Below, piece after piece: positions 37,701-60,492 of a DNA stretch of 64,000 nucleotides; the first letter of the stretch is position 1, and every line of letters begins with the position of its first letter. The notes beneath the pieces were generated by a model. The model was not told the origin of the DNA and did not search any database. It saw only the letters and a program-made list of their open reading frames with translations. This DNA is from Candidatus Promineifilum breve (GTDB lineage: Bacteria; Chloroflexota; Anaerolineae; Promineifilales; Promineifilaceae). Where the stretch lies: the NCBI RefSeq assembly GCF_900066015.1, contig NZ_LN890656.1, forward strand, positions 186,001-250,000, given 5' to 3'. A program made the translations under genes and the position numbers.

Positions 37701-38224
37701 GGCTCCTGCGCCCCCAGGGATTGATGAAGCGCGCGAATGCCGTTCAGAAAGTCGTCGCCGAACGCCAGGTGAACGATCACGCCGACTTCATCGACGAAGA
37801 TGGCCGCCGCGCCGCCGGTTTGGACGCAGACGACCCGCCGCAAGAAGGTCAGCAGGCGGTCGAGCGGGGTCAGGCCGTCGTGGTCGAGCCACCAGCCGGC
37901 CACGTCGACGGCGATGTCCATCTGCTCGGCCACCTGGTTCAGGAAGCTGAGGCACCACAGATCGACGGTGACGCCGGGGCCGCTGCCGAAGCTTTGCAGG
38001 TCGATGTAGGCGGTGGGGATGCGGTGCTCGCGCAGATAATCCTGGGCGCGGAAGATGAGGCTGGTCTTGCCCATCTGCGAGGCGGTCAGCACGTAGGCCA
38101 ACTCACCATCGGCCACCAGCCGGCGTAATTGCTTATCGGCCGAACGCTCCACGTAGCAGGGGGCATCATACGGGATGGCCCCATCCACGTAGAAAAATGG
38201 GCGTCCGCTAACGTGTGCTGACAT
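34784..38224 (-). CDS. AAA-like ATPase fused to about 14 WD40 repeats
   Basis: The start at 38224 (MSAHVSGRPFFYVDG) overlaps the upstream gene by 17 bp; the open frame has 19 extra codons. Residues 1-330 form an AAA-like (AAA_35-type) domain: YVERSADKQLRRLV, a P-loop-like TASQMGKTSLIFRA, AAIFVDEVG as Walker B, and WTNGHPYLTQRI. A membrane helix (VGAGVVLLLFGLLLISLA) lies near residue 380. About 14 WD40 repeats follow (for example LAFSPDGARLASADDQGRLH), enough for two seven-bladed propellers. A low-complexity GSPASPP linker interrupts them. This layout is STAND-like: a regulated NTPase with a C-terminal sensor, facing a membrane. Substrate and partners are unknown. Confidence 0.8.
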   Translation of the reverse strand: MSAHVSGRPFFYVDGAIPYDAPCYVERSADKQLRRLVADGELAYVLTASQMGKTSLIFRAQDYLREHRIPTAYIDLQSFGSGPGVTVDLWCLSFLNQVAEQMDIAVDVAGWWLDHDGLTPLDRLLTFLRRVVCVQTGGAAAIFVDEVGVIVHLAFGDDFLNGIRALHQSLGAQEPHYRLAFVLIGMIAPDQLIRDRTAARFNVGVRVPLGDLTLDEAGVLLDGLAGQDPAILHRVFHWTNGHPYLTQRICLAIAQEGSRPWTESDVDTQVKYLLLADEARELDSNLSYVRDALLLSPNRDELLRLYGAVCHGRRVRHQEQSPIQRELRFYGLVRPNSEGNLAVANPIYERVFNSRWVRNNSTWRWLWVVPRSAWVGAGVVLLLFGLLLISLARARSSERLALTRRLFAESAAVLDSQYDLGLLLGVEAYRLSPTAETAAFLRSDLSANPYLAAFLRAHEAQVNVVAAAGDGARFASADEAGQIVLWDAADLSPRPLTPAAAAAINAVGGVNAVGGVNALAFSAAGDLLAAGGCAAAPEPVACTEGEVTLWDTAGGQRLAAWPGHDDLVVGVAFNADGRYLASIGATTLIVRGLPDGKQLWAYTMAEGHRLTSLAFHPTDPDRLVFGDGAGTLRLANLATGTVELEFAAHADTLSALAFSDDGRRLASGGRDGSLAVWDAASWEPVVSSFAGHAGPVHDLAFDAAGRLFSTGGDGRIVQWAADGSTGRPAAELSLPDQGATGWSMAVADTPRGPTLLSIADEAIVVWDLAGDAARGRRLWGHDGGALGLDFHPADGRTLASAGADGTIRLWDTSLESPASPPPNGSPASPPADGSPSSPPPNGSPASPPADGSPASPPATPLVGHEGSVRRVVYQPGGDLLASTGHDGRVLLWDMAADPPAAVELGRHDARARALAFSPDGARLASADDQGRLHIWDVATGALVFNIDEAHSGEIFDVAYSPDGRLLATGSWDDTVRFWDAATLAPLGEPLAVGLEEVWDIAFSPDSRLLAVAGAPETVVLIDVAGRVVSGPLLTGQTPRVNALAFTPDGTLLATAGKDGTIALWDVAGRQGVGLPLDIHETEIYALAFSPDGRRLASADLNGLIFLTVMDHPQPADLACAIAGRNLTPEEKAQYVGPSASDEAACP
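35645..35795 (-). repeat. 27-bp coding repeat (GSPASPPAD units) inside the WD40 region
   Basis: About five nine-residue units (D-G-S-P-A-S-P-P-A, with variants) lie between two WD40 blades. The DNA units are near-identical, so the number is likely to vary between strains. Confidence 0.8.
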
Positions 38225-39686
38225 GGAGTCTGTCGGCGAAGTATTGGCGATACAATTCGCAACGACAGACGTAATTATCACCGACTTTGGCCACCAGTCC
38301 AGCTTTTAACAGGTGATGGCCGACTTTGGCGTCGGTGCAGCAGCGATTGGCCAGCACCTCGACGATGGCCGCCCGCAGGCGGGCGTCGTCGTCGACGCGC
38401 TGCAATTGCCAGCGCAAATGCTGATCGAACGGGCCTTCGTCCTGGACCGCGGCGGCCAATAGCTGGGGCCACGCCAGGCCGCCGGCGACCAGCGTGTAGA
38501 GGGCCACGCGGGTCAGATAGGGGTGGCCGTTGAGCAGGGCATGGAGCGCCGCCGTCTCGGCCGCGTTCAGCGGCGCGCCGTAGCGCCGGTTCAACTCGGC
38601 CGTCTGCTCATAGGTGAAATCATGCAGATAGAGCAGGTGGCCGATATTGAACGGGGATTCGCCCACTTTGTCGATCAGCAGATACGGCTCGGTGGAGATC
38701 GCCATCATCAGCGTCAACTTGCGCCAGGCGACATTACTGGCCCGTAAGTTGTGCCAGGAGCGCAACATACTGAAGAAATCTTTGGAGAAGGGGGTCAGTT
38801 GCAGGATGTCGACCTCGTCCATCGCCAGCAGGAGCGGCTGGTCGATCTGGCGCAGGGCATATTGGATGAGCCACTTCAAGTTGTCTTGCGGCAGAAAAGG
38901 CGTCGTCCATCGGTTTTGCCAGACGGTCAGGTCAAGCTCCAGGGTGTCGAAGATGTGGGCCGACAGGACGCGCGCCAGATCGCCCAGCGAGCCGCGCGCC
39001 TCTTCGCCCACGCCCTGGAAATCCAGATAGACGAGCCGGGCGCCGGAAATCTCCTGGGCATTGTGGATGCCGCGGGCCAGCAGCGACGTTTTGCCCACCT
39101 GGCGCGGGCCGCGGATGGTGATCGTCTGCCCCTCGCTGCGCAGTGCGAAGGCCAGTTTGTCGTCCGCCTCGCGCTCGATGTAGAACGGGTCGTCGGCCCG
39201 CATCCCGCCGCTGGGATACTCCAGCCGCCAGGGGATCTCGTCGCGGGTCATGGGGATTCCTTCCAGCGTGCGTAACTCTTCGGCTAATATCATTCTGGCC
39301 TTCCCGTACTCGCGGTGATAGTGGGCGCTGGCGAGGCCCACCAAATCCTGTAGGGCGGCGGTCGATATGCTGCGGTGGCGGGCGGTCAGGCCGCGCAAAA
39401 TACAGTACGGCCGCCAGTTGTAATCGAGCCAGCGCGGGTCTTCGGGGTTGTCGAGCGAGGGCGGGGCGGCGGTGTCGGGAGCCAGGCGGGCCACGGCCTC
39501 GTCGATGACGGCCCGCAAGGCGACGGCCGGGGTCAACTTGTCGGCCGCCTGACGCGCCGCTACCTGCCGCAGCCCCAGCAGCGGGCTGGCGGCCAGTCGA
39601 TCCGGTTTGCGCCACTGCTTGATGGCGTCATGGATCAACTCGTCCCATTGATCTTCGGTCAGACTGGTGAGCGATTGAGCGATCAT
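38208..39686 (-). CDS. AAA-like (AAA_35-type) ATPase with N-terminal helical domain
   Basis: The 492-residue protein has an N-terminal helical part (to about residue 150; SISTAALQDLVGLASAHYHR) and then an AAA-like domain: FYIEREADDKLAFALRS, Walker A RGPRQVGKTSLLARG (about 193-207), Walker B PLLLAMDEVD (about 280), and a sensor-like LNGHPYLTRVALYTLV. A winged-helix-like end follows. It is homologous in the ATPase core to the downstream WD40 protein, which starts 17 bp before this gene stops, so the two are translationally coupled and may form a hetero-oligomer. Neither carries an obvious effector, which may instead be the membrane protein at 33166. Confidence 0.78.
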   Translation of the reverse strand: MIAQSLTSLTEDQWDELIHDAIKQWRKPDRLAASPLLGLRQVAARQAADKLTPAVALRAVIDEAVARLAPDTAAPPSLDNPEDPRWLDYNWRPYCILRGLTARHRSISTAALQDLVGLASAHYHREYGKARMILAEELRTLEGIPMTRDEIPWRLEYPSGGMRADDPFYIEREADDKLAFALRSEGQTITIRGPRQVGKTSLLARGIHNAQEISGARLVYLDFQGVGEEARGSLGDLARVLSAHIFDTLELDLTVWQNRWTTPFLPQDNLKWLIQYALRQIDQPLLLAMDEVDILQLTPFSKDFFSMLRSWHNLRASNVAWRKLTLMMAISTEPYLLIDKVGESPFNIGHLLYLHDFTYEQTAELNRRYGAPLNAAETAALHALLNGHPYLTRVALYTLVAGGLAWPQLLAAAVQDEGPFDQHLRWQLQRVDDDARLRAAIVEVLANRCCTDAKVGHHLLKAGLVAKVGDNYVCRCELYRQYFADRLHVSTR

Positions 39687-39928
39687 CTTCCCTCAGGGCC
39701 AGGCCCGCGCCGCGCTCCCCCTGCCCGGCGATTTGTCCCTAACGTATTCAGTTTAACGCCAAACGCGGCCCGTGACTCCCCTAAAACTCTCCTGAAGGCG
39801 GGCCGGGGGCGGTTTTTTCTCTCTTTTCACGGGAGAAAACGGGATAGGTCTGTGGGATTCCGCCGCCGGGGGATGTCATATGATGTAATCAAGTTTGCGG
39901 CTGACCCAGGCAAACAATGGAGGCAACG

Positions 39929-40513
39929 ATGACTGCTCATAATATAAGCGAAACATACCAGTTCGGGCCAATCTTCCGGCGACTGCTGGGCCGCCGAGAG
40001 CCGGCGCGGCGGGCCGTCCAACCGCTGGCCCAACTGCACCGTGAATTCCAACCCGGCCAGCGCGGCATCTGCTACGATGACCTCTTCGGCCCCTATCTGG
40101 CCGGCGCGCGGCGGATCGTGATCACCGACCCGTTCATCCAGAGCTTCTACCAGACGCGCAATCTGATGGAACTGCTGGAGACCATCGTCCGCCACAAGAC
40201 CGCCAAACAGACGGTGTCGTTGCACCTGATCACCGAGCGCAGCGAGCCGGAGGAATTCGCCCGCAAACAGGCGAGCTTCCTGGACGACATCGCCGCCGTC
40301 GCGCCGGCGGCCGGCATCAGCTTTAGCTGGGAAACAAACCCCGACCTGCACGACCGTTCCATCCTCACCGACAACGGCTGGAAGATCGTCCTGGGCCGTG
40401 GGCTGGACATCTTCGAGCGCTACGATATGCACAACGCCTTCGATTTCCAGAACCGGCTGCAAATATGCCGCGCCGTGAAGGGCTTCTCGATCACGGTCAT
40501 CCAGTTGCTTTGA
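39929..40513 (+). CDS. MIT_C-type (PLD-like) domain protein
   Basis: The start is the ATG at 39929 behind GGAGG, not the one at 39917, giving 194 residues. Residues about 45-180 match the MIT C-terminal domain: ICYDDLFGPYLAGARRIVI, ITDPFIQSFYQTRNLMEL, LHDRSILTDNGWKIVLG and GRGLDIFERYD. This phospholipase D-like fold is known from animal MITD1, where it binds membranes, and from bacterial proteins, where it is often joined to Lon- or AAA-type ATPases. The catalytic HKD pair is absent, so it is a binding domain. It is transcribed away from the AAA-like operon, which starts 242 bp to the left. Confidence 0.8.
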   Translation: MTAHNISETYQFGPIFRRLLGRREPARRAVQPLAQLHREFQPGQRGICYDDLFGPYLAGARRIVITDPFIQSFYQTRNLMELLETIVRHKTAKQTVSLHLITERSEPEEFARKQASFLDDIAAVAPAAGISFSWETNPDLHDRSILTDNGWKIVLGRGLDIFERYDMHNAFDFQNRLQICRAVKGFSITVIQLL

Positions 40514-40670: not shown

Positions 40671-42323
40671 ATGGATACGACGCTTGGTTTACTATTGCTA
40701 TTGGGCTTGTTGGCCGGGGTGGTCTGGCTGATGTGGCGGCGCAGGGGAGCGGGCAGCGGCCGGCTGACCAGAGTGCAACCCCAGCCGTCGGGCCGGCAAC
40801 TGGTGTGCCTGCAAGGGCCGCTGGCCTCGCAGAGCTTCGCCTTCACTCGCAACGATCTGACCATCGGCCGCGAGCGGGATAACGACGTGGTCATCGACAG
40901 CCTGACCGTCTCGCGCCACCATGCCCGCCTCGTCGCCGGCCCCCAGGGCATCACCCTGAGCGACCCCGGCAGCACCAACGGCACGTGGGTGGCCGGGCGG
41001 CGCGTCACGGCCTACGCCCTGGACGAAAACGACACGTTCCAGATCGGCCCGTGCGTCTTCAGTGTGTTGGTTCCCGGCCGGGCCGTGGCCTTGCCGTCGG
41101 TGGCGCCCATCGCCCAGGTCGTCTCGTCCGTCTCGGCCGAGATGGCCCGCAGCGTGGAGATCAGCGCCTACCAGCAGGAGGAGTTGCTGGGCGAGGGCGG
41201 CGCGGCCTACGTCTACAAGCTGCGCAACCGCAATACCGGCGAGCTGGCCGCGCTGAAGGTGCTCAAGGACAAGGCCGACCCCTATTTCAAGGAGCGTTTC
41301 ACCGGCGAGGGGCAAATCGGGCTGCAACTGGATCATCCCCACATCGTCACCGTCTACAATACCGGCGAATACAACGGCATCCGCTACATCCTGATGGAGT
41401 ATCTGCCCGGCCAGTCGCTGCGCGAGCGGCTGCCCGGCCCGCTCGACGTGGGCCAGGCGGTCAACATCTTCGGCCAGATTTCCGAGGCCCTCGACTATGC
41501 CCACAGCCGCGGCGTCTACCATCGCGACATCAAGCCCGAAAATATCCTGTTCACCGACCGGGGCGTTGCCAAACTGGGCGACTTCGGCATCGCTCGCCTG
41601 ACGGGCATGAAGCGCATCACCCGCGAGGGCATGTTCATCGGCACGCCGGAATATATGTCGGCCGACCAGGCCCGCGGCCAGGACCCCGACGGCAAGAGCG
41701 ACCAGTATTCGCTGGGCGTCGTCCTCTACGAGATGCTCACCGGGCGGCAGCCGTTCTACGCCGCCGACCCGCTGGTCATCGTCGAGAAGCATCTGTCCGA
41801 GGCCCCCGAATCGCCGCGCCGCTACAACACCGCCATCCCGGCCAAAACCGAGACGGCCATCCTGCGCATGCTCAGCAAGGATCGCAGCCGGCGCTATAAC
41901 AGCCTGACCGAGGCGGCGGCGGCCCTGGGCTACCGCACGACGATGGCCGCCGGGCCGTCGCGGCCGGTCAAGCAGGCCGCCAAGCCGAGCGGCGCGTGGC
42001 GGTCGGGGCCGGCCGGGCCGGGGCCGCGGCTGGTCAACGTGGTCACCGGCCAGATCTGGCCGCTGAACGGGCCGGTGATTGTCCTGGGCCGGGCGCAGAT
42101 CGACGACCCGCTCGTCTCCCGCCACCATGCCGAGATCCATCAGAACGGCGCCAGTTACGTCATCGTCGATGTTGGCTCGAAGAACGGCACCTACGTCAAC
42201 GACCAGCCCATCGCCGCACCCCTTGTGCTTCAGCCGGGGGCCAGGATTAGCCTGGGCCAAACCCGGTTTGTGTTGCAGTTTCTTGTCGATGAGGCGCCGC
42301 CCAACGGCCGGCGTCTCGGCTAA
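40671..42323 (+). CDS. FHA - Ser/Thr kinase - FHA membrane protein
   Basis: The 550-residue protein has an N-terminal membrane helix (LGLLLLLGLLAGVVWLMW), FHA domain 1 (about 55-125: LTIGRERDNDVVIDSLTVSR, HHARLV, STNGTWV), a Hanks-type kinase (about 170-430: LLGEGGAAYVYKL, AALKVL, YHRDIKPENILF, GDFGIARL, GTPEYMSADQ) and FHA domain 2 (about 455-540: VSRHHAEIHQNG, SKNGTYVND). All kinase catalytic residues are present. Having FHA on both sides of the kinase is unusual and suggests it nucleates phosphothreonine-dependent complexes at the membrane. Next gene 23 bp away. Confidence 0.93.
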   Translation: MDTTLGLLLLLGLLAGVVWLMWRRRGAGSGRLTRVQPQPSGRQLVCLQGPLASQSFAFTRNDLTIGRERDNDVVIDSLTVSRHHARLVAGPQGITLSDPGSTNGTWVAGRRVTAYALDENDTFQIGPCVFSVLVPGRAVALPSVAPIAQVVSSVSAEMARSVEISAYQQEELLGEGGAAYVYKLRNRNTGELAALKVLKDKADPYFKERFTGEGQIGLQLDHPHIVTVYNTGEYNGIRYILMEYLPGQSLRERLPGPLDVGQAVNIFGQISEALDYAHSRGVYHRDIKPENILFTDRGVAKLGDFGIARLTGMKRITREGMFIGTPEYMSADQARGQDPDGKSDQYSLGVVLYEMLTGRQPFYAADPLVIVEKHLSEAPESPRRYNTAIPAKTETAILRMLSKDRSRRYNSLTEAAAALGYRTTMAAGPSRPVKQAAKPSGAWRSGPAGPGPRLVNVVTGQIWPLNGPVIVLGRAQIDDPLVSRHHAEIHQNGASYVIVDVGSKNGTYVNDQPIAAPLVLQPGARISLGQTRFVLQFLVDEAPPNGRRLG

Positions 42324-42346: not shown

Positions 42347-43099
42347 ATGGAAGGGCTTATGAGTTTTTGGTACGGATGGGGCGCGTTCCTCGGCGTGTTT
42401 CTGGCCGCCGCCGCCGCCATCTACATTTTCTTCGATTCGCAGGCCGCCGCGCCCGGCCGGGCCACCGCGCCGCGCATCCTGAGCATCGCCGGGCTGGCCC
42501 TGACGATACCCAGCCTCTTTTACCGGCTGACGAAGATGGATGGCATCGACGTGATGACGCCGGCCGACTTTTTCGCCGCCGACAGCAACTTCTCGTTGTT
42601 CCTCTATCTGGCGCTGGCCGGGGTGGCGCTGGCCCTGGGCGCGCTGATCTATTACTTGATGAGCGTGCGCAACTCAAGCTCAATTAATGTGACGGTCTAC
42701 CCGCCGCCGCCCCCGCCGCCGCCGCCGCCGCCGGTGGAACCGGTGGCCCCCCGGCCGCGCCCGGTCGCGGCGACGCTGCCCATGAATCAGGAACCGGCCC
42801 CGCAGGCTTGGCTGGTGGTGCGCGCCGGGCCGCGGGTGGGCCAGCAGTTGGCCCTGGGCATGTCGCGCCCCAACGTCATCGGCCGCGACCCCAACAAGGC
42901 CGACATCGTCATCGACGAGGAATCCGTCAGCCGTGAACATGCCCGCGTGCGCTTCGAGAACGGCCAGTTTGTCATCTACGACATGGCCAGCACCGGCGGC
43001 ACCCACGTCAACGGCAGCAACGTGCAGCGCCAAATGCTGTATGACAACGACCGCATCAATCTCGGCCGCGTCGAGATGGTCTTCAAGAAGGTAGCTTGA
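42347..43099 (+). CDS. Membrane-anchored FHA-domain protein
   Basis: The 250-residue protein has three hydrophobic segments in its first 105 residues (GAFLGVFLAAAAAIYIFF, ILSIAGLALTIPSLFYRL, FLYLALAGVALALGALIYYL), then a poly-Pro linker (residues about 122-135) and a cytosolic FHA domain (NVIGRDPNKADIVIDEESVS, REHARV, TGGTHVNG). AGGAGG lies at perfect distance from the ATG at 42347. It probably recruits phosphorylated partners to the membrane. Confidence 0.88.
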   Translation: MEGLMSFWYGWGAFLGVFLAAAAAIYIFFDSQAAAPGRATAPRILSIAGLALTIPSLFYRLTKMDGIDVMTPADFFAADSNFSLFLYLALAGVALALGALIYYLMSVRNSSSINVTVYPPPPPPPPPPPVEPVAPRPRPVAATLPMNQEPAPQAWLVVRAGPRVGQQLALGMSRPNVIGRDPNKADIVIDEESVSREHARVRFENGQFVIYDMASTGGTHVNGSNVQRQMLYDNDRINLGRVEMVFKKVA

Positions 43100-43110: not shown

Positions 43111-43554
43111 ATGACCAACCAATCCGACAGACCGACTGAACTCTATGACCCCAACGTACACGGGGCCGGCGCCCGCGGTGGGCGGCGCAAGACGGAAGTG
43201 CTGGAGCCGAAAGGGCCGCGTATCATCGCCATGCTCGTCGGCGTGGAAGGCGCGCCGGGTGTGGCCGGCCACATCTTCCGCCTCAGCACCGTCGCCGGCA
43301 CCAGCATCGGCCGCGACTACGAGAACGACATCGTCCTTGACGAGCCGGCCGTCAGCGGCCAGCACGCCAAGGTGAAGCTGGACGAGGTCGAGAAGGGACG
43401 GCTGCAATTCTTCATCCAGGACCTGGCCAGCGAGAACGGCACGGTCGTCAACGGGCAGAAGATCATCAAGCATTATCTGACCGAGAACGACCGCATCACG
43501 CTGGGGCGGGCCACGCTGGTCTTCAAGATCATCGACGACACACCCGGCGCGTAG
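43111..43554 (+). CDS. Soluble FHA-domain protein with GarA-like TEVL motif
   Basis: The ATG at 43111 (behind CGAGGA) is preferred over the TTG overlapping the previous stop; the protein has 147 residues. A short tail carries RPTELYDP and RRKTEVLEPKGP, then one FHA domain (SIGRDYENDIVLDEPAVSG, QHAKVKL, ENGTVVNGQKI). The layout of a short N-terminal Thr motif followed by a single FHA is that of mycobacterial GarA/corynebacterial OdhI, where phosphorylation of the Thr turns the FHA inward. Here the T-E-V-L threonine (codon 43192-43194) is the candidate phospho-site. Confidence 0.88.
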   Translation: MTNQSDRPTELYDPNVHGAGARGGRRKTEVLEPKGPRIIAMLVGVEGAPGVAGHIFRLSTVAGTSIGRDYENDIVLDEPAVSGQHAKVKLDEVEKGRLQFFIQDLASENGTVVNGQKIIKHYLTENDRITLGRATLVFKIIDDTPGA

Positions 43555-43579
43555 GCCGGGATCACAGGAGGTTTTTGTT

Positions 43580-44611
43580 ATGTCCGCTTTCAAGAAGTCT
43601 TACATCCCGCTCATCGGCGCCCTGCTCGTCGTGGTGGGGTTCTTCCTGCCGTGGCTTTCCATTGATGCGCTGGATCTATTGGCGGGGGAATTCGGCGGCG
43701 AATTAAACTCGTCCGCCTTTGGATTGGCTAATCTGGGACGGAGCGAGTTAATGGATTTGGTACCCGAAGCGCGGGTGCTCCTAGCCCTGTGGGCCTTTTT
43801 AATCATTGGCCTGGCCGTCCTCGGATTGGGTGCCTGGGCGCTGCGTGATCCGTCCAAGGAGCGCGTCGCCGCCCAATGGCAGTTCGTTGCCGGCATCGTG
43901 GGCTTGTCCTTGATCATTGGCCCGCTGCTCTACATCTTCGTGGCTGAACCCGAGCTGTCCTTCGCCATCGATACCCTGCTTAATCCGGGAATCGGCTTTT
44001 GGCTGTCCATCCTTGGCCTGGTGGCGATCGTGATCGGCGCTACCCTCGTCTTACGCGAATTCCGCGCCGGGCTGGCCGGCCATGCCCCGCTCGACTACGG
44101 CGGCTATCCCCAAACGAGCACCGGCGGCGTGGGCATCGGCTATGGCGTCGGGACGATCGACGGCGGCGAGGCCAACTATCAGCCGCCGGCCCCCAGTTTC
44201 ACCGCCCCGGTCACGATGAATGAGCCGCCGCCCGCCCCGCCGCGCCACGCCACCGAAGTGCTCGACCGGCGCGACCCGCTGGCGATGGCCTGGCTGGTGA
44301 TGAAAGACGGCCCGCGCGCCGGCCACACCTTCCGGCTGCTGGAGACGACCAGCATCGGCCGCGACGCCGGCAACGACGTCATCATCGACGACGTGTCGCT
44401 GTCGGGCCAGCATGCCAAGGTCAAGTTCGAGGACGGCGATCATTACGTCATCTACGACCTGGCCAGCACCAACGGCCTGTTCTACTACGACGAGGCCAAG
44501 CAGGAGTGGGTGCGCGACTATCGCATCGCGCTGAAGGACGGCCAGCAGGTGAAGCTGGGGCGCACCGTGCTCCATTTCATGGCCCCCAAAATCGACAAGA
44601 GCGCCATGTAG
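43580..44611 (+). CDS. Polytopic membrane protein with C-terminal FHA domain
   Basis: The 343-residue protein has about four hydrophobic segments (LIGALLVVVGFFLPWLSI, LLALWAFLIIGLAVLGLGAW, FVAGIVGLSLIIGPLLYIF, IGFWLSILGLVAIVIGATLV) in residues 10-160, a Gly/Pro linker, an ATEVLDRRDP motif (Thr codon 44252-44254) and an FHA domain (SIGRDAGNDVIIDDVSLSG, QHAKVKFEDG, STNGLFYYD). The extracytoplasmic loops are short. AGGAGG precedes the ATG at 43580. It is the second case of TEVL followed by FHA. Confidence 0.87.
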   Translation: MSAFKKSYIPLIGALLVVVGFFLPWLSIDALDLLAGEFGGELNSSAFGLANLGRSELMDLVPEARVLLALWAFLIIGLAVLGLGAWALRDPSKERVAAQWQFVAGIVGLSLIIGPLLYIFVAEPELSFAIDTLLNPGIGFWLSILGLVAIVIGATLVLREFRAGLAGHAPLDYGGYPQTSTGGVGIGYGVGTIDGGEANYQPPAPSFTAPVTMNEPPPAPPRHATEVLDRRDPLAMAWLVMKDGPRAGHTFRLLETTSIGRDAGNDVIIDDVSLSGQHAKVKFEDGDHYVIYDLASTNGLFYYDEAKQEWVRDYRIALKDGQQVKLGRTVLHFMAPKIDKSAM

Positions 44612-44742
44612 GTGGAACTTCCAGTTCCACCCGCTGGGCAAACGCGGACTCGTAGGTGGAACTTCCAGTTCCACCTATGGGGAAGTGGAACTGGAAGTTC
44701 CACCTACAGGGAAGTGGAACTGGAAGTTCCACCTACATTCGA
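44612..44742. repeat. GGTGGAACTTCCAGTTCCACC repeats
   Basis: Four GTGGAACTTCCAGTTCCAC-type palindromes, two in each orientation of their flanks, fill the gap between the FHA gene and the phosphatase gene. They could fold into paired hairpins between cotranscribed genes. Confidence 0.9.
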
Positions 44743-44759
44743 GGAACAGGCGCAACGCC

Positions 44760-45947
44760 ATGACCATGAGTCTATCAGTCGCCCACGCCGCCCACGTCGG
44801 CCTGGAACGTGAAACCAACGAGGACAGCTATCTCGTCCTCGTGCCGCCGGGGGTGCGCCCGCCGGTCGATGGCCTGCTGCTGGTGGCCGACGGCGTGGGC
44901 GGCACCAACGCCGGCGAAGTCGCCAGCGGCGTGCTGGTCGAGTCGTTCCTGGCCTGGTTCAACGGCCACACCTACGGCGGCGCGGTGCATTACAACCCGG
45001 CCCATGCCGATTATTTCGTGGCCGGGCTGAAGGATTTGCTGGAAAACGCCAACGAAACGCTCTACCAACTGGCCGGCACGCGCTCGGAATGGGCCAAGAT
45101 GGGCACCACGGCCACCGTGGCCCTGTTCAGCAATGACCGCCTGTTTCTGGGCCACGTGGGCGACACGCGGGCCTACCTGTTGCGCGACGGGGCGCTGAGC
45201 CAACTGACGGCCGACCACTCGTGGGTGGCCGAGGAAGTGGCCGCCGGGCGCATGACCCCGGCCGAGGCCCAGAACCACCCCCGCCGCAACGTCATCAGCC
45301 GCGTGCTGGGCAACGGCCTGCTGCTGCGCGTCGACCGCCAGGCCATCGACCTGAAGCCGCAGGACGTGGTGATCCTGACCTCCGACGGGCTGACCGGGCT
45401 GGTGGGCGACGCCGAGATACAGGCCGCGGCGCTGGGGTCGCGCTCCTTGCAAGAGGCGTGCGACCGGCTGATCGCCACGGCCAACAGCCGCGGCGGCCAC
45501 GACAACAGCACCGTACTGGCCGCCCGCGTGTTGCCCGAGGGCCAGGGCCGCCCGGTCACGCCAGATGGCGTGGTCGTCAATTCCGTCTATCTGAGGCGCG
45601 AGGCCGCGCCCAACCGGGCCGGGGCCGGGCGGGCGGAGCGCCCCGGCCGGGGGCAGACGACGGTCATGCCCGCCCGACCGGCCGGCGGCAAGCGAGGCGC
45701 CGGGGCCGGCGCGAAGTTGTTGCTGTTCGTGGCCGTGGCCGCCGCGGCCGGGGCGCTGGGGCTGGCCGCGGCCGTCGTCTTGGGCGAGAACCGGGGCCTG
45801 ACACTCGCCGGCCGGTCGTTCGATTCGGTTGATTTGGCCGGGATGCTGGCCGGTCTGGCCGTCATTATCGGCTTTGCATTGGGCTACTATGGGCGGCAAT
45901 GGCTGCATGAGCGCCGCCAACCGGGTAGCCCGCCACAGGAGAGGTAA
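44760..45947 (+). CDS. PP2C-type Ser/Thr phosphatase with C-terminal membrane segments
   Basis: The 395-residue protein starts at ATG 44760 (a second ATG lies two codons later). The PP2C domain has ETNEDSYLV, LVADGVGGTNAGEVAS, GHVGDTRAYLLRDG, LTSDGLTGLVGDAEI and GGHDNSTVL, with all metal-binding Asp residues. A linker with GQTTVMPARP leads to two hydrophobic segments (LLLFVAVAAAAGALGLAAAVVL and LAGLAVIIGFALGYY). It would remove phosphates added by the adjacent kinases, from the cytosolic side. T-T-V-M resembles the TEVL phospho-motif of its neighbours. Confidence 0.92.
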   Translation: MTMSLSVAHAAHVGLERETNEDSYLVLVPPGVRPPVDGLLLVADGVGGTNAGEVASGVLVESFLAWFNGHTYGGAVHYNPAHADYFVAGLKDLLENANETLYQLAGTRSEWAKMGTTATVALFSNDRLFLGHVGDTRAYLLRDGALSQLTADHSWVAEEVAAGRMTPAEAQNHPRRNVISRVLGNGLLLRVDRQAIDLKPQDVVILTSDGLTGLVGDAEIQAAALGSRSLQEACDRLIATANSRGGHDNSTVLAARVLPEGQGRPVTPDGVVVNSVYLRREAAPNRAGAGRAERPGRGQTTVMPARPAGGKRGAGAGAKLLLFVAVAAAAGALGLAAAVVLGENRGLTLAGRSFDSVDLAGMLAGLAVIIGFALGYYGRQWLHERRQPGSPPQER

Positions 45948-45949
45948 CC

Positions 45950-47851
45950 ATGAAATCTCGTGCCTTTTTCGTTTTATTCATCATTGCCCTGGGCGCGGCC
46001 ATGTTGGCCCGTCCGGCGGCGGCCCAATCGGGCGTGAGCCTGGAGTTCCACCCCACCGGCGAGGCCGACGCCACGCCGCTGGTCGATGAGAGCGGCTTTC
46101 CCCAGTTGCGGATGGGTCTCACGCCGCTGAGCGATTCCGGCGTGCCCATCGGCGGCCTGACGACGCCCAATTTCGGCGTCAGCGAGAACGGCGGCCCGGT
46201 GGAAAACCTGGTCGTCAACGAACGGGTTGACCCCAACCAGGGCATCTCGGTCGTGCTGGTGCTCGACGTCAGCGGCAGTATGCTCGACGACATCGACGCG
46301 CTGCGGACGGCCACGGCCGCGCTCTATGATCAGGTGCTGCAACAGACCGACGAATCGGCCCTGGTCACCTTCGCCGCGCTGGAAGACGGCAACACCGTCA
46401 ACCTGGGCGACCCCTTCCCGCAACTGACCGCCGGGCGCGAGGCCAACTTCACCAATGATGAAGGGCTGCTGCGCAATCTGATCAACGGCCTGATCATCAA
46501 TGCCGGCGACGGCACGCCGCTGTATGACGCCATCTATAAGGGGGCGCGGCTGGCCCGCGAGGAAGCCCACAACTCGCGCCGGGTGGTCATCGTGATGACC
46601 GACGGCGTGGACGAAGACCGCCAGGGCACGGCCGAGGCCGGCAGCGTCGTCTATGACCGCGATAGCGTCATCGTCGAGCTGCGCGAGTTGAACGTGCCGG
46701 TCTTCACCGTGGGGCTGGGCGACGAGATCGATAGCCCGTTCCTGCAACGGGTCGCCAATACCACCGGCGGCACCTACCAGAACGCGCCCGACGCCGCCGC
46801 GCTGGCCGCTATCTTCACCGAGGTGGCCTCGCAATTGAAGGTCAAGTATGACCTGTCGTTTACGTCGGCCACCGAGTCCGATGGCGAGCAGCACAACCTG
46901 ACCATCGATGTGAGCACGCCGCTGGGGGATGCGTCCGACAGCGTGCCATTCGAGGCGCTCTTCCCCGTCCAGCCCTGGGTTCGGGACGTGCAGGCGGCCA
47001 ACCCGCGCCAGGAGTTCCGCTCGCTGACGACCTTCGAGGGGGTGAAGGGGCGGGTGACGTTGCAGCCGAAGGTGGTGGCCCGTGGCGACATCGCCGCCGT
47101 CAACTACTACGTCGATGACACCCTGGTGTACCAGGCGACGGCCGCGCCGTGGGAGTACCTCTGGAACACGACCGAGTTGACGCCCAACGAGAACCACCGG
47201 CTGCGCATCGAGGCCGCCGACGACAGCCCGACGCCCAACGTCGGCCTGAGAGACTTCGATCTGCTGGTCGAGGAGTGCAGCATCATCTGCCAGGTGGAGC
47301 AGTCGACCGGCATCCCGGCCAACTTGCTGCTCATCGGCCTGCTGGTGCTGTTGCTGCTGTTCGCTCTGTTGGTCTGGCTGCTGACCCGCCGCCGGCAGGA
47401 GCCGGAAGTGATCTACGTGCCGCCGGTCTACACGCCGCCGGTCGTGGATTCGCGCCCGCCGACGCAGCCCACGCCGGTCGCGCCGCGGCCGACGATCAGC
47501 GCCGAGGCCCCGGCGGGCATGGCCGCCCGCCCGCGCGCCAAGACCGAGGTGCTCAATCGCGCCCAGGGGCCGATCGCCTTCCTGATCGACACCCAGACCG
47601 GCCGCCAGTTCCCGCTGAGCGACGGCACGACCATCGGCAGCGGCGCCGGCAACGACGTCATCCTGGACGAGACGACCGTCAGCGGCCAGCACGCCAAGGT
47701 CAAGCTGGAGAACGGCGCGTTCGCCCTGTTCGACCTGGCCAGCACCAACGGCACCACCGTCAACGGCGCGGCGATCACCCATCAGGTGTTGGCCGACGGC
47801 GACCGCGTGCAGGTGGGGCGGAAGGTGTTGACGTTTAAGGTGGTGGGATGA
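45950..47851 (+). CDS. von Willebrand A protein with membrane helix and cytosolic FHA domain
   Basis: The 633-residue protein has a signal peptide (MKSRAFFVLFIIALGAAM ... AAA), an extracellular vWA domain with MIDAS (VVLVLDVSGSMLDD near residue 100; MTDGVDED near 220), beta-rich domains, a membrane helix (ANLLLIGLLVLLLLFALLVWLL, about 460-482), the AKTEVLNRAQGP motif (Thr codon 47543-47545) and an FHA domain (TIGSGAGNDVILDETTVSG, QHAKVKLENG, STNGTTVNG). It links an outside ligand-binding module with inside phosphothreonine recognition, which I have not seen as a standard architecture. 2 bp separate it from the phosphatase gene, so they are coupled. Confidence 0.9.
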   Translation: MKSRAFFVLFIIALGAAMLARPAAAQSGVSLEFHPTGEADATPLVDESGFPQLRMGLTPLSDSGVPIGGLTTPNFGVSENGGPVENLVVNERVDPNQGISVVLVLDVSGSMLDDIDALRTATAALYDQVLQQTDESALVTFAALEDGNTVNLGDPFPQLTAGREANFTNDEGLLRNLINGLIINAGDGTPLYDAIYKGARLAREEAHNSRRVVIVMTDGVDEDRQGTAEAGSVVYDRDSVIVELRELNVPVFTVGLGDEIDSPFLQRVANTTGGTYQNAPDAAALAAIFTEVASQLKVKYDLSFTSATESDGEQHNLTIDVSTPLGDASDSVPFEALFPVQPWVRDVQAANPRQEFRSLTTFEGVKGRVTLQPKVVARGDIAAVNYYVDDTLVYQATAAPWEYLWNTTELTPNENHRLRIEAADDSPTPNVGLRDFDLLVEECSIICQVEQSTGIPANLLLIGLLVLLLLFALLVWLLTRRRQEPEVIYVPPVYTPPVVDSRPPTQPTPVAPRPTISAEAPAGMAARPRAKTEVLNRAQGPIAFLIDTQTGRQFPLSDGTTIGSGAGNDVILDETTVSGQHAKVKLENGAFALFDLASTNGTTVNGAAITHQVLADGDRVQVGRKVLTFKVVG

Positions 47852-47939
47852 GAATTAAGAATTAGGAATTAGGAATTAGGAATGAAGAGCGCGCTCTGAA
47901 TTCCTAATTCGTAATTCGTAATTCGTAATTCCTAATTCT
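47851..47939. repeat. AATTAGG / AATTACG heptamer hairpin
   Basis: GAATTAGGAATTAGGAATTAGG meets the centre GAAGAGCGCGCTCTGAATTC and returns as AATTCGTAATTCGTAATTC units. It begins at the stop codon of the vWA-FHA gene. Confidence 0.9.
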
Positions 47940-47950
47940 CTGGAGAGACG

Positions 47951-49411
47951 ATGTCTAACTTGACCGGCCGCGCCTTGGGCGTCTATCAGGTGGAGAAGAA
48001 GATCGGCGAGGGGGGCAACTCCGACGTCTATCTGGCGCGCGACACCCGCAACAACGAGCGGGTGGCGCTGAAGCTGCTGCGCCTGGAGCACCACGCCGAC
48101 CCCAAGAAGGTGGAGCGCTTCTGGCAGAGCGGCCACGCCGCGCGCCATCTGCAACACCGCCACATCGTGCGCGTGCGCGAGGCCGGCATGGCCGATGCCC
48201 GCTACTACATCGCCATGGATTACATGTCCGGCCGCTCGGTGGAGGACGTGCTGAACCAGGGCGAGAAGGCGTTGCACTGGAAGGCGGCGCTGCACTATAT
48301 AGAGCAGGTGGCCGAGGCCATCGACTACGCCCATACCCAGGGCGTCATCCACCGCGACATCAAGCCCAGCAATATCCTGCTGTCGGAAGACCGCAAGACG
48401 GCCTATCTGACCGACTTCGGCATTGCCCTGCTGACCGGCCGGGAGACTTCCACCCATTCGGGCACGCTGGTGGGCACGCCGGAGTACATCTCGCCGGAGC
48501 AGATCCAGGGGCGCACCGCCGACCGCCGCAGCGACATCTACAGCCTGGGCGTCACCGCCTACCATATGTTGAGCGGCCGACTGCCCTTCGACGGCCCGGC
48601 GGTGACAGTGCTCTATAACCACGTCCACACGCCGCCGCCGGCCATCGGCCGCATCAATCGCGAGCTGCCGGCCGGTTTCAATCGGGCCATCAACCGGGCG
48701 CTGGCCAAGGACCCGCAGCGGCGCTACGCCACGGCCGGCGAGTTCGCCCGCGAGCTGCGCCGGGCGGCGACCGGCAAGCCCAACCGGATGGTGTGGGCCG
48801 GGCTGGGCGCGGTGGTTGCGCTGATCCTGCTGCTGGCCGTCGTGCCCCGCTTGCTGAACCAAAACCCGGCGACCACGACGGTCGTCACCCGGCAGGTAAC
48901 GGCCACGGCCGGGGCCATCGTCGACGGGCCGACCGCGACGGTGGCGGCTACCATCGCGGGGGCCACCGCTGTGGGGGCCACTTCCACGACGGCGGCCATT
49001 GCGCCGGCCACCAGCACCGGCCGCCCACCGGCCACCGACCCGCCGCCCACGCTGGCCGCGGCGGGCAACACGCCCACGCGCCCGCCCGCGCCGGACAGGG
49101 CCGCGCCGCGCCCGTTGGCCCCGGCCGATGGGGCCGACCTGGCCCGCAACGCGGCCATCCAGACCTTCCGCTGGGAGTGGGCACGGCCGCTGGCCGCCGA
49201 TGAATCGTATGAGTTGCGCTTCTATGGGGCGACCGGCGATGATTTCGCGGCCCCGTTCGGCTGGCACAAGCAGAGCAGCGCCGAAGTCGATCTGAATAAT
49301 CTGCCGGCCGGGACGTATCGCTGGGCCGTGGCCGTGGTGCGCGGCGTGGACGGCGCGTGGGCCGGCGACGTGGCCGAGAGCGAAAAGTTGGACCTGACCT
49401 GGGGTCGTTGA
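47951..49411 (+). CDS. Membrane Ser/Thr kinase with extracellular sensor-like domain
   Basis: The 486-residue protein has a kinase domain (about 10-270: KIGEGGNSDVYLA, VALKLL, IHRDIKPSNILL, LTDFGIALL, GTPEYISPEQ), a membrane helix (VWAGLGAVVALILLLAVVPRL, about 280-300), a Thr/Ala-rich spacer and a beta-sandwich-like domain (TFRWEWARPLAADESYELRF ... GTYRWAVAVVRG). The catalytic DFG and HRD motifs are complete. The outer domain resembles Fn3/Ig-like folds and not the PASTA repeats of Actinobacteria and Firmicutes. GGAGAG precedes the ATG. Confidence 0.92.
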   Translation: MSNLTGRALGVYQVEKKIGEGGNSDVYLARDTRNNERVALKLLRLEHHADPKKVERFWQSGHAARHLQHRHIVRVREAGMADARYYIAMDYMSGRSVEDVLNQGEKALHWKAALHYIEQVAEAIDYAHTQGVIHRDIKPSNILLSEDRKTAYLTDFGIALLTGRETSTHSGTLVGTPEYISPEQIQGRTADRRSDIYSLGVTAYHMLSGRLPFDGPAVTVLYNHVHTPPPAIGRINRELPAGFNRAINRALAKDPQRRYATAGEFARELRRAATGKPNRMVWAGLGAVVALILLLAVVPRLLNQNPATTTVVTRQVTATAGAIVDGPTATVAATIAGATAVGATSTTAAIAPATSTGRPPATDPPPTLAAAGNTPTRPPAPDRAAPRPLAPADGADLARNAAIQTFRWEWARPLAADESYELRFYGATGDDFAAPFGWHKQSSAEVDLNNLPAGTYRWAVAVVRGVDGAWAGDVAESEKLDLTWGR

Positions 49412-49426
49412 CGGATTAAGATAACT

Positions 49427-50947
49427 ATGGAAAGCATCAACAACGCCGCCGCTGCCTTTGACCCGCGCTTCCTGGGCGTCACCACTGTGGCCGGCCGCCG
49501 CCCGGTCAACGAGGACGCCTGGGGCGCGCCGCCGCCGGGCGCGGCCGACGCCGTGGCCTGCTTCGTCGTGGCCGATGGGGTGGGGGGGCAGGAGCGGGGC
49601 GACGTGGCGTCGCGGACGGCGGCGGCGGCGGTCATCCGTGCCTTCTATGAGCGCCGCGCCGCCGGCGATGACCCGGCCGCGGCGCTGCTGGCCGCCGTGA
49701 GCGCGGCCAACGCCGAGGTCTACCGGCTGGCCCAGAGCCTGGGGGTGGAGCGGATGGGCTGCACCCTGGCGGCGGCGGCCGTGGGCGGCGGGCGGCTCGA
49801 CGTGGTGCACGTGGGCGACGCGCGGGCCTGGCTGTGGCAGGGCGGGCGGCTCTATGCCCTGACCCGCGACCACACCTGGGTGCAGGAACAGGTCGACCGG
49901 GGCACGATTACCCCGGCCGACGCCGCCCAGCACGAATTGCGCCACATCGTGACCCGCGTGCTGGGCAACGAGGCGACCATCGAGGCCACGCTGGCCCGCC
50001 CGGCGGCCTTTGGGCCGGGGGACAGGCTGCTGCTGTCGTCCGATGGTCTACACGACGTGGTGGACGAGACGCGGCTGGCCCAACTGCTGGGCCTGGGCGC
50101 GCCGGGCGTGGCGGCCCAGACACTGGTCGAGGCGGCGCTGGCCGGCGGGTCGGAGGACAACGTGACGGCGCTGGTGGTGGAGGGGCGACCGGCAGGGGCC
50201 GCCCGCCCGCATGAGGCCACGCCGGTCGCCCAACCGCGTGAGGTCGCGCCGGCCGCCCGCCAGGCGACCGAAGTCTTGCCGCCCGACAATAAACGGATCG
50301 CCGCCGTCCCGCCGGCCACCCAATCGCCATCCGAAGTAGCCACCGTGCAGGGCAAACGCCCGCCCCCCGGCTACATTCCCCCACAGGGGCGCGCCCCGGC
50401 CGCGGCCCCGCCCGCCCAGCGGACGGCGCTGTTGCCGGTGTTGGGCGCGGCGGTATTGGCGGTGTTTGTGCTCATTGGGGCGTTTACAATCCTGTTGCCT
50501 ATTCTGCGCAGCCTGAGCGGGTCGGACGCCACGCCCACGGCCGCCGTTCCGGGCGGGGCGGCGACGAGCACGCCCGACCCGGCCGCCACGAGTCCGGCGG
50601 CGGCGGCCACGTCTACCGGCGCGCCGACCGGCGTGCCTGACGGCTATCCCCCCCCGACGGCGACGGCCGCGGCGGAGGCGACGGTCGCGGTGGGCGGCGT
50701 GATGTGCATTGTGCCGGCCAATGGGACTTTTCGTTATTCGAACGAAAAGGCCGCGATGACGGCAACGTGCCTTTGGGCGGATGATCTGCTGCAAGGGCCG
50801 GTGACCATCCTGGCCGGCCGGCAGATGATTACCACCCAACCCGATTGTGGCGACTACGAATTTCAGCAGGTGCAATCGGTGGCGTCCCCGCACATTGTCG
50901 GCTGGGTGTTGGCAGCAAACCTTGTTGCCTGCCCGGAGGAGCGATAG
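49427..50947 (+). CDS. PP2C phosphatase with membrane helix and CIVPANGTF extracellular domain
   Basis: The 506-residue protein contains a PP2C domain (NEDAWGAPPP, FVVADGVGGQERGDVAS, HVGDARAWLW, LSSDGLHDVVDETRL, GGSEDNVTALVV). A cytosolic linker bears ATEVLPPDNK (Thr codon 50267-50269). Then come a membrane helix (VLGAAVLAVFVLIGAFTILL), a low-complexity stalk and a last domain of about 80 residues beginning [17 protein letters not shown]. That domain is almost identical to the tail of the kinase at 58623-60359. A kinase and a phosphatase therefore carry the same outside module and may respond to one signal. It follows the kinase gene by 15 bp. Confidence 0.92.
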   Translation: MESINNAAAAFDPRFLGVTTVAGRRPVNEDAWGAPPPGAADAVACFVVADGVGGQERGDVASRTAAAAVIRAFYERRAAGDDPAAALLAAVSAANAEVYRLAQSLGVERMGCTLAAAAVGGGRLDVVHVGDARAWLWQGGRLYALTRDHTWVQEQVDRGTITPADAAQHELRHIVTRVLGNEATIEATLARPAAFGPGDRLLLSSDGLHDVVDETRLAQLLGLGAPGVAAQTLVEAALAGGSEDNVTALVVEGRPAGAARPHEATPVAQPREVAPAARQATEVLPPDNKRIAAVPPATQSPSEVATVQGKRPPPGYIPPQGRAPAAAPPAQRTALLPVLGAAVLAVFVLIGAFTILLPILRSLSGSDATPTAAVPGGAATSTPDPAATSPAAAATSTGAPTGVPDGYPPPTATAAAEATVAVGGVMCIVPANGTFRYSNEKAAMTATCLWADDLLQGPVTILAGRQMITTQPDCGDYEFQQVQSVASPHIVGWVLAANLVACPEER

Positions 50948-52808: not shown

Positions 52809-54167
52809 ATGAACCCGAAGAGATATCTACTCATTCCGGTCCTGATGGCGTTGTTATGGCTTTTGGCCGTATGGACGCCGGGCTTACGCCACTCCTCCGC
52901 GGCCGAGCAAGCGGTTGTGGGTCAAGGCTCGCAACTCCTCACGCCCGGCGCTCCTAATCCAATCGAGTCGCCCACCACGCCGACGGCCACCCCGACCACG
53001 ACGGCAACCACCACGGGGACAGTCACCGCAACCCCGACGGCAACCACTACGGGGACAGCCACCGCTACGCCAACGGCTACCACTACGGGGACGGTCACCG
53101 CAACGCCAACGGCAACCGCCACGGGGACTACCACCACGACCCCGACGGCAACGTCGACCGGAACAATCGTGGCGCCGCCAACTCCACCGGATCTTTACAT
53201 TCCTGTTGTCCGTGCGGAAGGGTTGTGGAGACGGATGGATGATGGCGCCGTCCAGGCCGGCGCGTTGAGTCTGGCCGTCTGTCCGACTGATGGTAAACAC
53301 GACATTCGCTATCTCGGCGCGGCCGGCGGCCTGTTCAAATGGTTACCAGGTGACAAGAAATGGGAACAGGTGATGCAGACCGCAGACCCGACACCAATAC
53401 CGATACCGGGCGCGGTGTGGGATGTCTGGCTGGAAGGCCAGGATTGTAACAAGGTCTATGCCGCCGCGCTGGAAAACGGCCTCTGGAGCGTGACCGTGAC
53501 TTCGAATAAGAATGAAGTTGAGCGGCTCGATGAAGAAGAGGATGAAATTCCGCCGGTGGGCAGCGTCGTCATTCGCAACAATCTCCTCTTTGCCGGAACC
53601 GATGGCGGGGTTCGTCTTTATGACCTCAATGACGATGAATGGCGGCCGGCAACCACCGTCACGGAACTAATCACCCGGCAAAGCATGGCCGGCGATCGCG
53701 TCTACGTCGCTGCCTGGACATTCGGCGTTAAGTACCACGACGCGTGCGGTCAAAACCAGTGTAACAACTGGCAGGAACTGCCCGCGCCGACGAATCTGGC
53801 TTACGTCCGCGACGTGCTGGGCAGCGCGGAGGGCGACCCGAATGATCCGGCTTTCTGGGCCGTGGCCGCCACCTCGGCCGGCGTCACCTATTGGAACGGA
53901 ACCACATGGACTCAACCGGACGAGGACGATGGGCCGCAACCCAATGGCGATACCTACGCGTTGGCTCAAACGACAGACGGAGCAACTATCTTCGCCGCGG
54001 TCGAGGGCAGCGGCATCTGGACTTCGGCCGATAAAGGGCAAACCTGGACCCGGCTGGGCGAATTCAACTATCTGACCCGCGACCTGACCGTCGCCGGCAA
54101 TGTGCTTTATGCCGTTACGCCCAATGATGGCGTCTGGCAATGGCTTTTACAGGAAGCGACCCCATGA
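52809..54167 (+). CDS. Secreted Asp-box / propeller-like protein with Thr-rich N-terminal repeats
   Basis: The 452-residue protein has a signal anchor (YLLIPVLMALLWLLAVW), then about eight T-A-T-P-T-A-T-T-T-G-T units (residues 58-120), followed by beta-rich repeats ending with an Asp-box: IWTSADKGQTWTRLGEF and YAVTPNDGVWQWLLQ. The repeats fit a sialidase-like or YCF48-like propeller. It carries no kinase, phosphatase or FHA domain. Its stop overlaps the next kinase ATG as ATGA at 54164-54167, so the two are coupled; it may be the outside partner of that kinase. Confidence 0.78.
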   Translation: MNPKRYLLIPVLMALLWLLAVWTPGLRHSSAAEQAVVGQGSQLLTPGAPNPIESPTTPTATPTTTATTTGTVTATPTATTTGTATATPTATTTGTVTATPTATATGTTTTTPTATSTGTIVAPPTPPDLYIPVVRAEGLWRRMDDGAVQAGALSLAVCPTDGKHDIRYLGAAGGLFKWLPGDKKWEQVMQTADPTPIPIPGAVWDVWLEGQDCNKVYAAALENGLWSVTVTSNKNEVERLDEEEDEIPPVGSVVIRNNLLFAGTDGGVRLYDLNDDEWRPATTVTELITRQSMAGDRVYVAAWTFGVKYHDACGQNQCNNWQELPAPTNLAYVRDVLGSAEGDPNDPAFWAVAATSAGVTYWNGTTWTQPDEDDGPQPNGDTYALAQTTDGATIFAAVEGSGIWTSADKGQTWTRLGEFNYLTRDLTVAGNVLYAVTPNDGVWQWLLQEATP

Positions 54168-56086
54168 CCAACCAACAACTAGGCCCCTACACCATCCAAT
54201 CCCTTCTCGGCCAGGGCGGCATGGCCGACGTCTATCTGGGCTGGGACGCGGCCAACCGCTGGCCGGTGGCCCTCAAGGTGCTGCGCGCCGCGCCGGGCAA
54301 GGAGACCAAGCTGCTGCGCCGCTCGGAGCGCGAGGCGGCCCTGCTGCTGAAGCTGCGCCACCCCCACATCGTCCAGATCTACGGCGCGAACCGGGCCGAC
54401 GACGGCCGCTACTACATCGCCATGGAGTACGTGGCCGGCGGCGACCTCGATGACCTGATGCGCCGCAAGCCGGGGGCCAAGCTGGCGGTCAACGAGGCCG
54501 TCTACCTGATGCGCCGCGTGGCCGGGGCCATGGCCTATGCCCACGAGCAGGGCATCGTCCACCGCGACCTGAAGCCGAGCAACGTGCTGCTGCGGGCCGA
54601 CACGGGCGAGCCGGTGGTCACCGATCTGGGCATCGCCGCCTTCGCCGGGGCCAACCCGCTGACGGGCACGATGGAGTCATTGGGCACGCCGCAATACATG
54701 GCCCCCGAGCAGGTATCGAGCAACGCCCCGGCCGACGGCCGGGCCGACATCTACGCCATCGGCGTGATGCTCCACGAGCTGCTGACCGCCCGCCTGCCGT
54801 TTGAGGGGGACAACAACTGGAGCATCCTCTTCCGCAAGCAGCAGGAGGACGCGCCGTCGGTGCTGGCGGCGCGGCCCAATCTCGATCCGCGGCTGGCGGC
54901 CGTGGTCGATACCTGTCTGCGGCGCGACCCGGCCGACCGCTACCAGACGGCCGGGGCGCTGGCCGCGGCCCTCGACGCCCTGCTGCCGGCCGACGCCCAC
55001 CCGCCCATGCCGGTCGTGGTGAAGTCCAAGAAGGGCGTGGCGGCGACGCCGTCCAACCCGTCGGTTGTGCCGGGGGTTGTGGCCTTGCCTGTCGTCGCGG
55101 AGCCGGCCGGAGGCCGGCGATCCGTGTTGCCGTGGGTTGGGGGGGCGGCGCTGTTGTTGCTGTTGCTGCTGGCCGGTTTCTGGCTGTTCGGCGGCGGCGG
55201 CGGCGGCGGGGGGGAGCCGACGGCCGCGCCGGCCATCGCCGCGGCGACCGACAAGCCGGCGGCCATTAATTCGGCCACCATTAATGAAGATGAATCCGGC
55301 GCGCCTACCTCAACGGCGGCGGCCGTCGCCGGGCAGGCGAACGACAACACGGCGGCCAACGACGCCGCGGGTCGGGCGACGGCCACCCGCCCGGCCACCC
55401 GCCGCGCGGCCACGCCCACCCGGCGGGCCACGCGCGGCGCGGCCACGGCCACCCCGGCCAGACGGGCCGCCGTCACCGCCGCCCCGGCCACGACCGCGCC
55501 GGTGCTGCTGGAGCCGCCGCCGGCCACCTGCCCACCGGGGGCAACGTCGCCGCAATACACCGGCGGCGCCACGATCACCTTCCGTTGGCGCTGGCCCCAA
55601 TTGCCGGCCGCCGGCCACGGGCTGGAAGTGCAGGCCGGGCCGGTGGGCAGCCTCAGGAGCCTGGGCCGCGTCGATCCGGCCGTCCATCGCCAGGCCAACG
55701 GCGAATGGGCCTTCCCCGTGGCCGCGGCCACCATCGCCCAGGGGGGCGGGAGCGACTTCTCCTGGCGCGTCGTCTACCGCGCCACCGCCGGCGCGGAAGT
55801 GGCCGTCTCGCCCGTGGCCTGCTTCCGCATCAGCGGCGGCGAGGCCGGCGGCGCGCAGCCGACCGACACCCCCCGCCCGGCCGATACGGCCCGACCGACT
55901 GATCCCCCGCGGGCGACCAACACGCCCTGGCCCACAGCCACGATCGAGCCGACGAGCCCGCCGCTGCCGACGGCCACGATTTCGCCGACGCCCTACGTCG
56001 AACCGCCGACCGTGACGCCGAATCCGTCCCCACCTTACTATCCGCCGCCGCAGGCGACCGACACGCCCAATCCGCCCTATCCATAG
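54164..56086 (+). CDS. Membrane Ser/Thr kinase (DLG variant) with outside sensor domain
   Basis: The start is ATG 54164 ([12 protein letters not shown]), overlapping the previous stop; 640 residues. Kinase domain about 8-270: [31 protein letters not shown], then VTDLGIAAF, where Leu replaces the Phe of DFG, and [10 protein letters not shown]. The metal-binding Asp is kept. Then come a Pro/Val linker, a membrane helix ([14 protein letters not shown]), a poly-Gly spacer, an Arg/Thr-rich stretch and a Cys-framed domain ([20 protein letters not shown] to VACFRISGG). A Pro/Thr-rich tail ends PNPPYP. It is the first of four close paralogs. Confidence 0.92.
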
Positions 56087-56097
56087 GGGATATGACG

Positions 56098-60359: not shown

Positions 60360-60366
60360 GCGTGGG

Positions 60367-60475: not shown

Positions 60476-60492
60476 GGATGAAGTAATTGACG

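Follow-up and report, generated by a model that had tools for sequence, protein, structure and literature searches.

FHA proteins, kinases, and phosphatases of the island

The window (the whole 64,000-nucleotide stretch of DNA analyzed here) comes from a Chloroflexota genome of 5.03 Mb in three contigs with 18 Pfam FHA matches. It contains an island of genes for Ser/Thr kinases, PP2C phosphatases, and FHA domain proteins. The features considered below are as follows, with the corresponding motifs of G038, an Anaerolineae MAG (Chloroflexota) of the same genus.

40671..42323, + strand: FHA-kinase-FHA Ser/Thr kinase, candidate writer and reader (Pfam; HRDIKPEN and DFG intact)
42347..43099, + strand: TM protein with a proline-rich linker and an FHA domain (Pfam)
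42773..42784, + strand: TLPM (VAATLPMNQ), a diverged copy of the motif in TM-FHA protein 42347, positioned as in the other FHA proteins (G038: VAATQPVNP)
43111..43554, + strand: small soluble FHA protein, 147 aa, with the motif and one FHA domain (Pfam, AF2, structure and PDB sequence comparison; closest folds GarA, OdhI, and DgcB)
43192..43203, + strand: TEVL (RRKTEVLEP) of the 43111 protein; FHA strand 1 follows at a distance of 12 residues (G038: RRKTEVLRP)
43580..44611, + strand: multi-TM protein with a cytosolic linker, the motif, and an FHA domain (Pfam)
44252..44263, + strand: TEVL (RHATEVLDR) of the multi-TM protein, N-terminal to its FHA domain (G038: RRATEVLSR)
44685..45947, + strand: PP2C phosphatase with a cytosolic linker and TM, candidate eraser (Pfam; start probably at ATG 44760)
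45657..45668, + strand: TTVM in the linker of PP2C 44685, not strictly conserved (G038: SHTVVA)
45950..47851, + strand: protein with extracytoplasmic vWA and Big_7, TM, and a cytosolic FHA domain with GSG for GR, i.e., no conserved phosphate-contact Arg (Pfam; topology from sequence)
47543..47554, + strand: TEVL (RAKTEVLNR) of the vWA-TM-FHA protein, in its cytosolic linker (G038: RAKTEVLSR)
47951..49411, + strand: transmembrane Ser/Thr kinase, candidate writer (Pfam; HRDIKPSN and DFG intact)
49427..50947, + strand: second PP2C phosphatase, with a linker and TM (Pfam)
50267..50278, + strand: TEVL (RQATEVLPP) in the linker of PP2C 49427 (absent from the G038 orthologue)

An earlier note on this DNA had reported TEVL at four codons, and the motif is found at all of them: T33 of ORF 43096 (codon 43192; ATG 43111 is the likely start), T225 of 43580 (44252), T532 of 45950 (47543), and T281 of PP2C 49427 (50267). 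It also held that TEVL shortly precedes the FHA domain in three genes; this was confirmed, the distance to FHA strand 1 being 10 to 12 residues. The TTVMPA that it described in the other PP2C was located as well. Pfam detects FHA in all three TEVL-bearing FHA proteins, whose scores of 46.5 to 69.4 bits exceed the PF00498 gathering cutoff of 20.7, and PP2C in both phosphatases, the motifs of which are intact. For one motif-bearing protein, the FHA fold was confirmed by structure comparison. Among the 18 FHA domains of the genome, only those of the 43111, 43580, and 45950 proteins are preceded by TEVL; the genomic background for the motif was taken from 29 stretches of 20 kb. TEVL is one instance of a wider T-x-[VIL]-[LIM] tag.

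Positions 44604-44738, between 43580 and PP2C 44760, hold an intergenic cluster of four copies, direct and inverted, of a 24-nt palindrome-like repeat (GTAGGTGGAACTTCCAGTTCCACC). Since GTG 44685 lies inside this cluster, ATG 44760 is the likelier start of the phosphatase.

Conservation of the tag in G038 and across the class

The sole orthologous island that we found is that of G038, the nearest island-bearing relative. No close orthologues beyond it turned up in the family, of which 52 genomes were searched; apart from the G038 contig, a contig scan across genomes yielded mostly distant FHA proteins. The small FHA protein is 72% identical to its G038 orthologue. TEVL and the Arg at −3 are invariant in all three pairs of FHA orthologues, while the linkers directly upstream are only 30 to 39% identical. 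Thus, in the orthologue alignment that the earlier note had proposed as a check for loss of the motif, the FHA proteins keep it between diverged flanks. Because the TEVL codons differ both between the species and between paralogues, TEVL identity is kept at the protein level; recent duplication as the source of the repeated motif was rejected, since both the codons and the linkers differ. The vWA-FHA orthologue of G038 carries a second copy further upstream (KLGATEVMAG).

The G038 island includes one more small FHA gene (L080 17158-17517), inserted where the orthologues of 42347 and 43096 would otherwise be neighbors. Its pThr site is degenerate (IGHD), yet a Thr tag is present (EPTRNLDT).

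The same alignment gave the opposite outcome for the phosphatases. The G038 orthologue of PP2C 49427 lacks the whole segment holding ATEVLPP, so that TEVL is lost, and TTVMPA of PP2C 44685 is replaced by SHTVVA. In other islands, PP2C linkers contain AKTIQL, SRTAIV, HDTLPV, and similar sequences. The 17 PP2C linkers analyzed hold 19 motif instances against 10 after shuffling (P = 0.002), an excess driven by one linker with five; when linkers with at least one motif are counted instead, the enrichment is marginal (11 of 17 against 7.5 shuffled, P = 0.054). The missing ATEVLPP segment and the replaced TTVMPA weaken the proposal of the earlier note that the phosphatases are clients of the tag as well as its erasers, and we regard this part of the model as doubtful. 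When whole proteins were scanned with the motif profile, the background was so high that no clients other than FHA proteins could be called.

A profile built from six sequences led to FHA islands distributed over many families of the class. Other genomes have the same gene set of FHA-STPK-FHA, several FHA proteins, PP2C, vWA-TM-FHA, and STPK. We read 20 regions in full; together with the window and G038, they gave 22 loci with 80 non-kinase FHA proteins. Redundancy removal left 54, of which 53 single-FHA proteins extended far enough upstream. T-x-x-[LIVMF] at −9 to −18 from FHA strand 1 is present in 41 of the 53, compared to a shuffled mean of 9.2 and a maximum of 16 (z = 12); as the island paralogues are related, the trials are not independent, and the shuffle statistics overstate independence. 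The remaining 12 proteins have no tag at the expected place. With Ser in place of Thr, the tag is not enriched in this set (6 versus 8.2 shuffled).

The distances show a sharp peak at −11, where Thr occurs 30 times and Ser never; elsewhere in the same linkers the ratio is 153:158 (Fisher P = 3e-9). When Thr is at −11, the +3 residue is hydrophobic in 26 of 30 proteins and the +4 residue in none of the 30; for other linker Thr residues, a hydrophobic +3 is seen in 34 of 134. In an alignment of 42 rows, the Thr column is Thr in 38 and the +3 column is L, I, V, M, or F in 41, while positions +1 and +2 vary. Selection bias from the motif-containing search profile was considered and rejected, as dropping the island-seeding proteins made no change: the tag was found in 28 of 37 proteins (6.5 shuffled) and, after an additional 50% redundancy cut, in 18 of 21 (3.8 shuffled). 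Overall, the sequence comparisons support the view that the tag is real, is maintained by selection, and goes with the FHA domains of kinase/phosphatase islands.

Outside the islands, neither the FHA proteins of other taxa from the contig scan (10 of 44, 6.0 shuffled) nor generic FHA proteins of the same family (5 of 25, 3.8 shuffled) show enrichment of the tag. The clear KTEVL/KTEIL cases among the latter are of the same linker-FHA type, and two of them (L071 and L074) adjoin a PP2C gene. In other classes of the phylum, the tag is present in 17 of 41 proteins (5.6 shuffled) with looser spacing, and the Ser version in 4 of 41. On the basis of these controls, the tag belongs to Chloroflexota FHA proteins, being strictest in kinase/phosphatase islands, and is not a general FHA feature. 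Some of the FHA proteins from other classes (L178, L185, L186, L189, L193, and L195) are encoded beside a small membrane-anchored FHA gene; their tags are similar (TTQVM, TMTMIM) and lie farther, and at variable distances, from the FHA domain.

Proposed recognition of the tag by FHA domains

FHA domains are strict pThr readers, and pTxx[I/L/V] is one of their two catalogued ligand classes (PMC8786283). The tag sequence matches this rule twice, in its strict Thr and in its aliphatic +3. The pThr-binding residues (GR, SxxH, and NG) are intact in 43096 and 43580, as in most other island FHA domains; 45950 has GS for GR.

The AF2 model of the 43111 protein is confident for the FHA domain (residues 38 to 142, mean pLDDT 86.6), whereas the tag has a pLDDT of only about 70 and the tail one of about 62 to 73. 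The nearest solved structures are GarA (Z 18.2, 1.3 Å over 99 residues), OdhI (Z 18.1), and DgcB (Z 16.9); GarA again ranks first in the sequence comparison with the PDB. All three proteins read a peptide from their own tail (PMC6733907; for GarA self-binding, PMC5448819).

Could the tag be an unphosphorylated structural element that leads into the FHA sandwich and packs against it? The tight spacing to strand 1 would fit, and N-terminal residues of kanadaptin do pack on sheet 2 (PMC4157861). However, Thr at −11 is not swapped for Ser, Val, or Ile as it would be at a structural site, +1 and +2 vary, model residues 28 to 31 have no regular structure, and FHA domains elsewhere do without the tag, all of which makes this explanation very improbable. 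It is also quite improbable that the tag serves only as a kinase target or as a docking site for a kinase and acts by charge or through a reader other than the island FHA domains. A hydrophobic +3 can be a kinase preference too, and the basic residue or Pro at −1 and Arg at −3 of the window paralogues would suit a kinase. Yet the position of the tag is tied to FHA domains, and strict Thr without Ser fits FHA reading better, because Ser/Thr kinases commonly accept both.

The earlier note had suggested a GarA-like switch, with reading in cis or in trans. In a cis switch like that of GarA and OdhI, the phosphorylated tag would fold onto the FHA domain of its own chain and keep partners from it. 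One half of this comparison stands: the tag always shares its chain with an FHA domain, and the TSVF of GarA and OdhI, the nearest structures, has the same T-x-V-hydrophobic form. Docking in cis fares worse. In the structural alignment, model residue 36 corresponds to GarA 52 and OdhI 43, so that the distance from the tag to strand 1 is about 34 residues for GarA T22 and about 32 for OdhI T15, compared to 12 in the 43111 protein, 10 to 12 in the window, and typically 11 in island FHA proteins. For DgcB T14, it is about 18 to 20 residues. Moreover, among FHA domains without the phosphate-contact Arg or Ser, the tag is kept in five of five clear cases, including the vWA-FHA protein of the window, which also weakens docking on the own FHA domain. 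In FHA folds, the termini generally lie at the end opposite to the ligand loops, a further point against cis reading. The pThr site itself lies at one end (PMC4157861).

Short spacers are compatible with binding between molecules. In TIFA, pThr9 directly precedes the FHA domain (the first ordered residue is Glu10) and is bound between dimers (PMC7083832), and the N-terminal segment of kanadaptin binds a symmetry mate (PMC4157861). Since the spacer is short and the tag is kept on FHA domains without a phosphate-contact residue, we favor trans reading, i.e., TIFA-like phospho-dependent assembly, over a cis switch, which we consider unlikely; with five degenerate domains, this preference is not a proof.

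It is thus probable that the island FHA proteins share one phosphorylation tag, through which they are written, read, and joined to each other. Kinases 40671 and 47951 would phosphorylate T-x-[VIL]-[LIM] in the cytosolic linkers, and the phosphorylated tag would become a ligand for FHA domains of another copy, of sister proteins, or of the FHA-kinase; reading mainly in trans is proposed because only some 11 residues separate the tag from the FHA domain of its own chain. Phosphorylation would link the vWA-TM-FHA receptor, a putative extracytoplasmic sensor, with the TM-FHA scaffolds acting as anchors, the FHA-kinase, and the soluble FHA protein in a single complex attached to the membrane. The PP2C phosphatases would reverse the phosphorylation and dissolve it. 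We consider this scheme, a kinase-written FHA ligand read mainly in trans, reasonably probable. A stronger version, put forward tentatively, is a network in which interchangeable pThr tags at a near-fixed short spacing let sensor, scaffolds, adaptor, and FHA-kinases polymerize, as a bacterial counterpart of the TIFA-type signalosome that is conserved in the class and looser across the phylum.

Related systems and flanking genes

In the FHA dimers of MDC1 and Chk2, an N-terminal pThr is read by the FHA domain of a second molecule. The MDC1 pT4-peptide entries 3uot and 3unn are among the structure matches of the 43111 model; unlike the island proteins, MDC1 and Chk2 are DNA-damage proteins with a longer spacer and are not bacterial. 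The T6SS PpkA-PppA-Fha pathway comprises a Ser/Thr kinase, a PP2C, and an FHA partner encoded together. Ser/Thr kinase, PP2C, and vWA partners are likewise encoded together, as in the island, in the GAP1-N2 and related triads (PMC7159879). In neither case is a multi-paralogue FHA set with a common N-terminal tag known to have been described, and no GAP1 GTPase or T6SS genes were identified among the island proteins examined.

GarA (Rv1827) and OdhI of Actinobacteria share with the 43111 protein the small FHA architecture, with the closest fold (Z about 18, 36 to 37% identity), and an N-terminal T-x-V-hydrophobic motif, a phosphosite in GarA and OdhI and a putative one in the island protein. 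They differ in their longer spacer and in being single genes for cis control of 2-oxoglutarate metabolism, whereas the island has several paralogues, some membrane-bound, within one kinase/phosphatase island. TIFA, from vertebrate innate immunity, has a Thr directly N-terminal to the FHA domain whose reading between dimers yields oligomers (PMC7083832). This is an analogy, not homology: TIFA is a single eukaryotic protein with the alpha-kinase ALPK1 as its writer and no phosphatase or vWA partner in the locus. DgcB of Bdellovibrio is a bacterial FHA protein with a self-derived N-terminal Thr peptide and +3 Val (PMC6733907), but it is a single protein with a GGDEF output domain and a longer spacer.

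Self-recognition of pThr by FHA proteins is therefore known already. New, as far as open papers show, is a tag common to many FHA paralogues of one kinase/phosphatase island, with fixed spacing and class-wide occurrence; the open-licence papers searched do not describe this motif in FHA proteins of Chloroflexota. Bacteria have many FHA domains, for which few ligands are known, and the tag, through its presence in most island proteins, names a likely phosphosite and a likely reader in several hundred kinase-island proteins. One cheap test could decide how a large uncharacterized Chloroflexota signaling system works. If trans reading is true, the system would be a bacterial, multi-component version of phosphothreonine-driven assembly.

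The island is flanked by other genes. An ATPase-like pair, one member with WD40-type repeats, lies at 34784-39686 of the window, divergent from the kinase/FHA island. It adjoins the island in G038 too (L081 1136-5954) and for this reason may belong to the same system. Between the pair and the FHA-kinase, 39917-40513 encodes a protein of about 200 aa that is conserved in G038 (L081 291-905). On the other side, four tandem transmembrane Ser/Thr kinases (54140-62649) have near-identical activation segments with DLG for DFG, unlike the two FHA-linked kinases (40671 and 47951), which have DFG.
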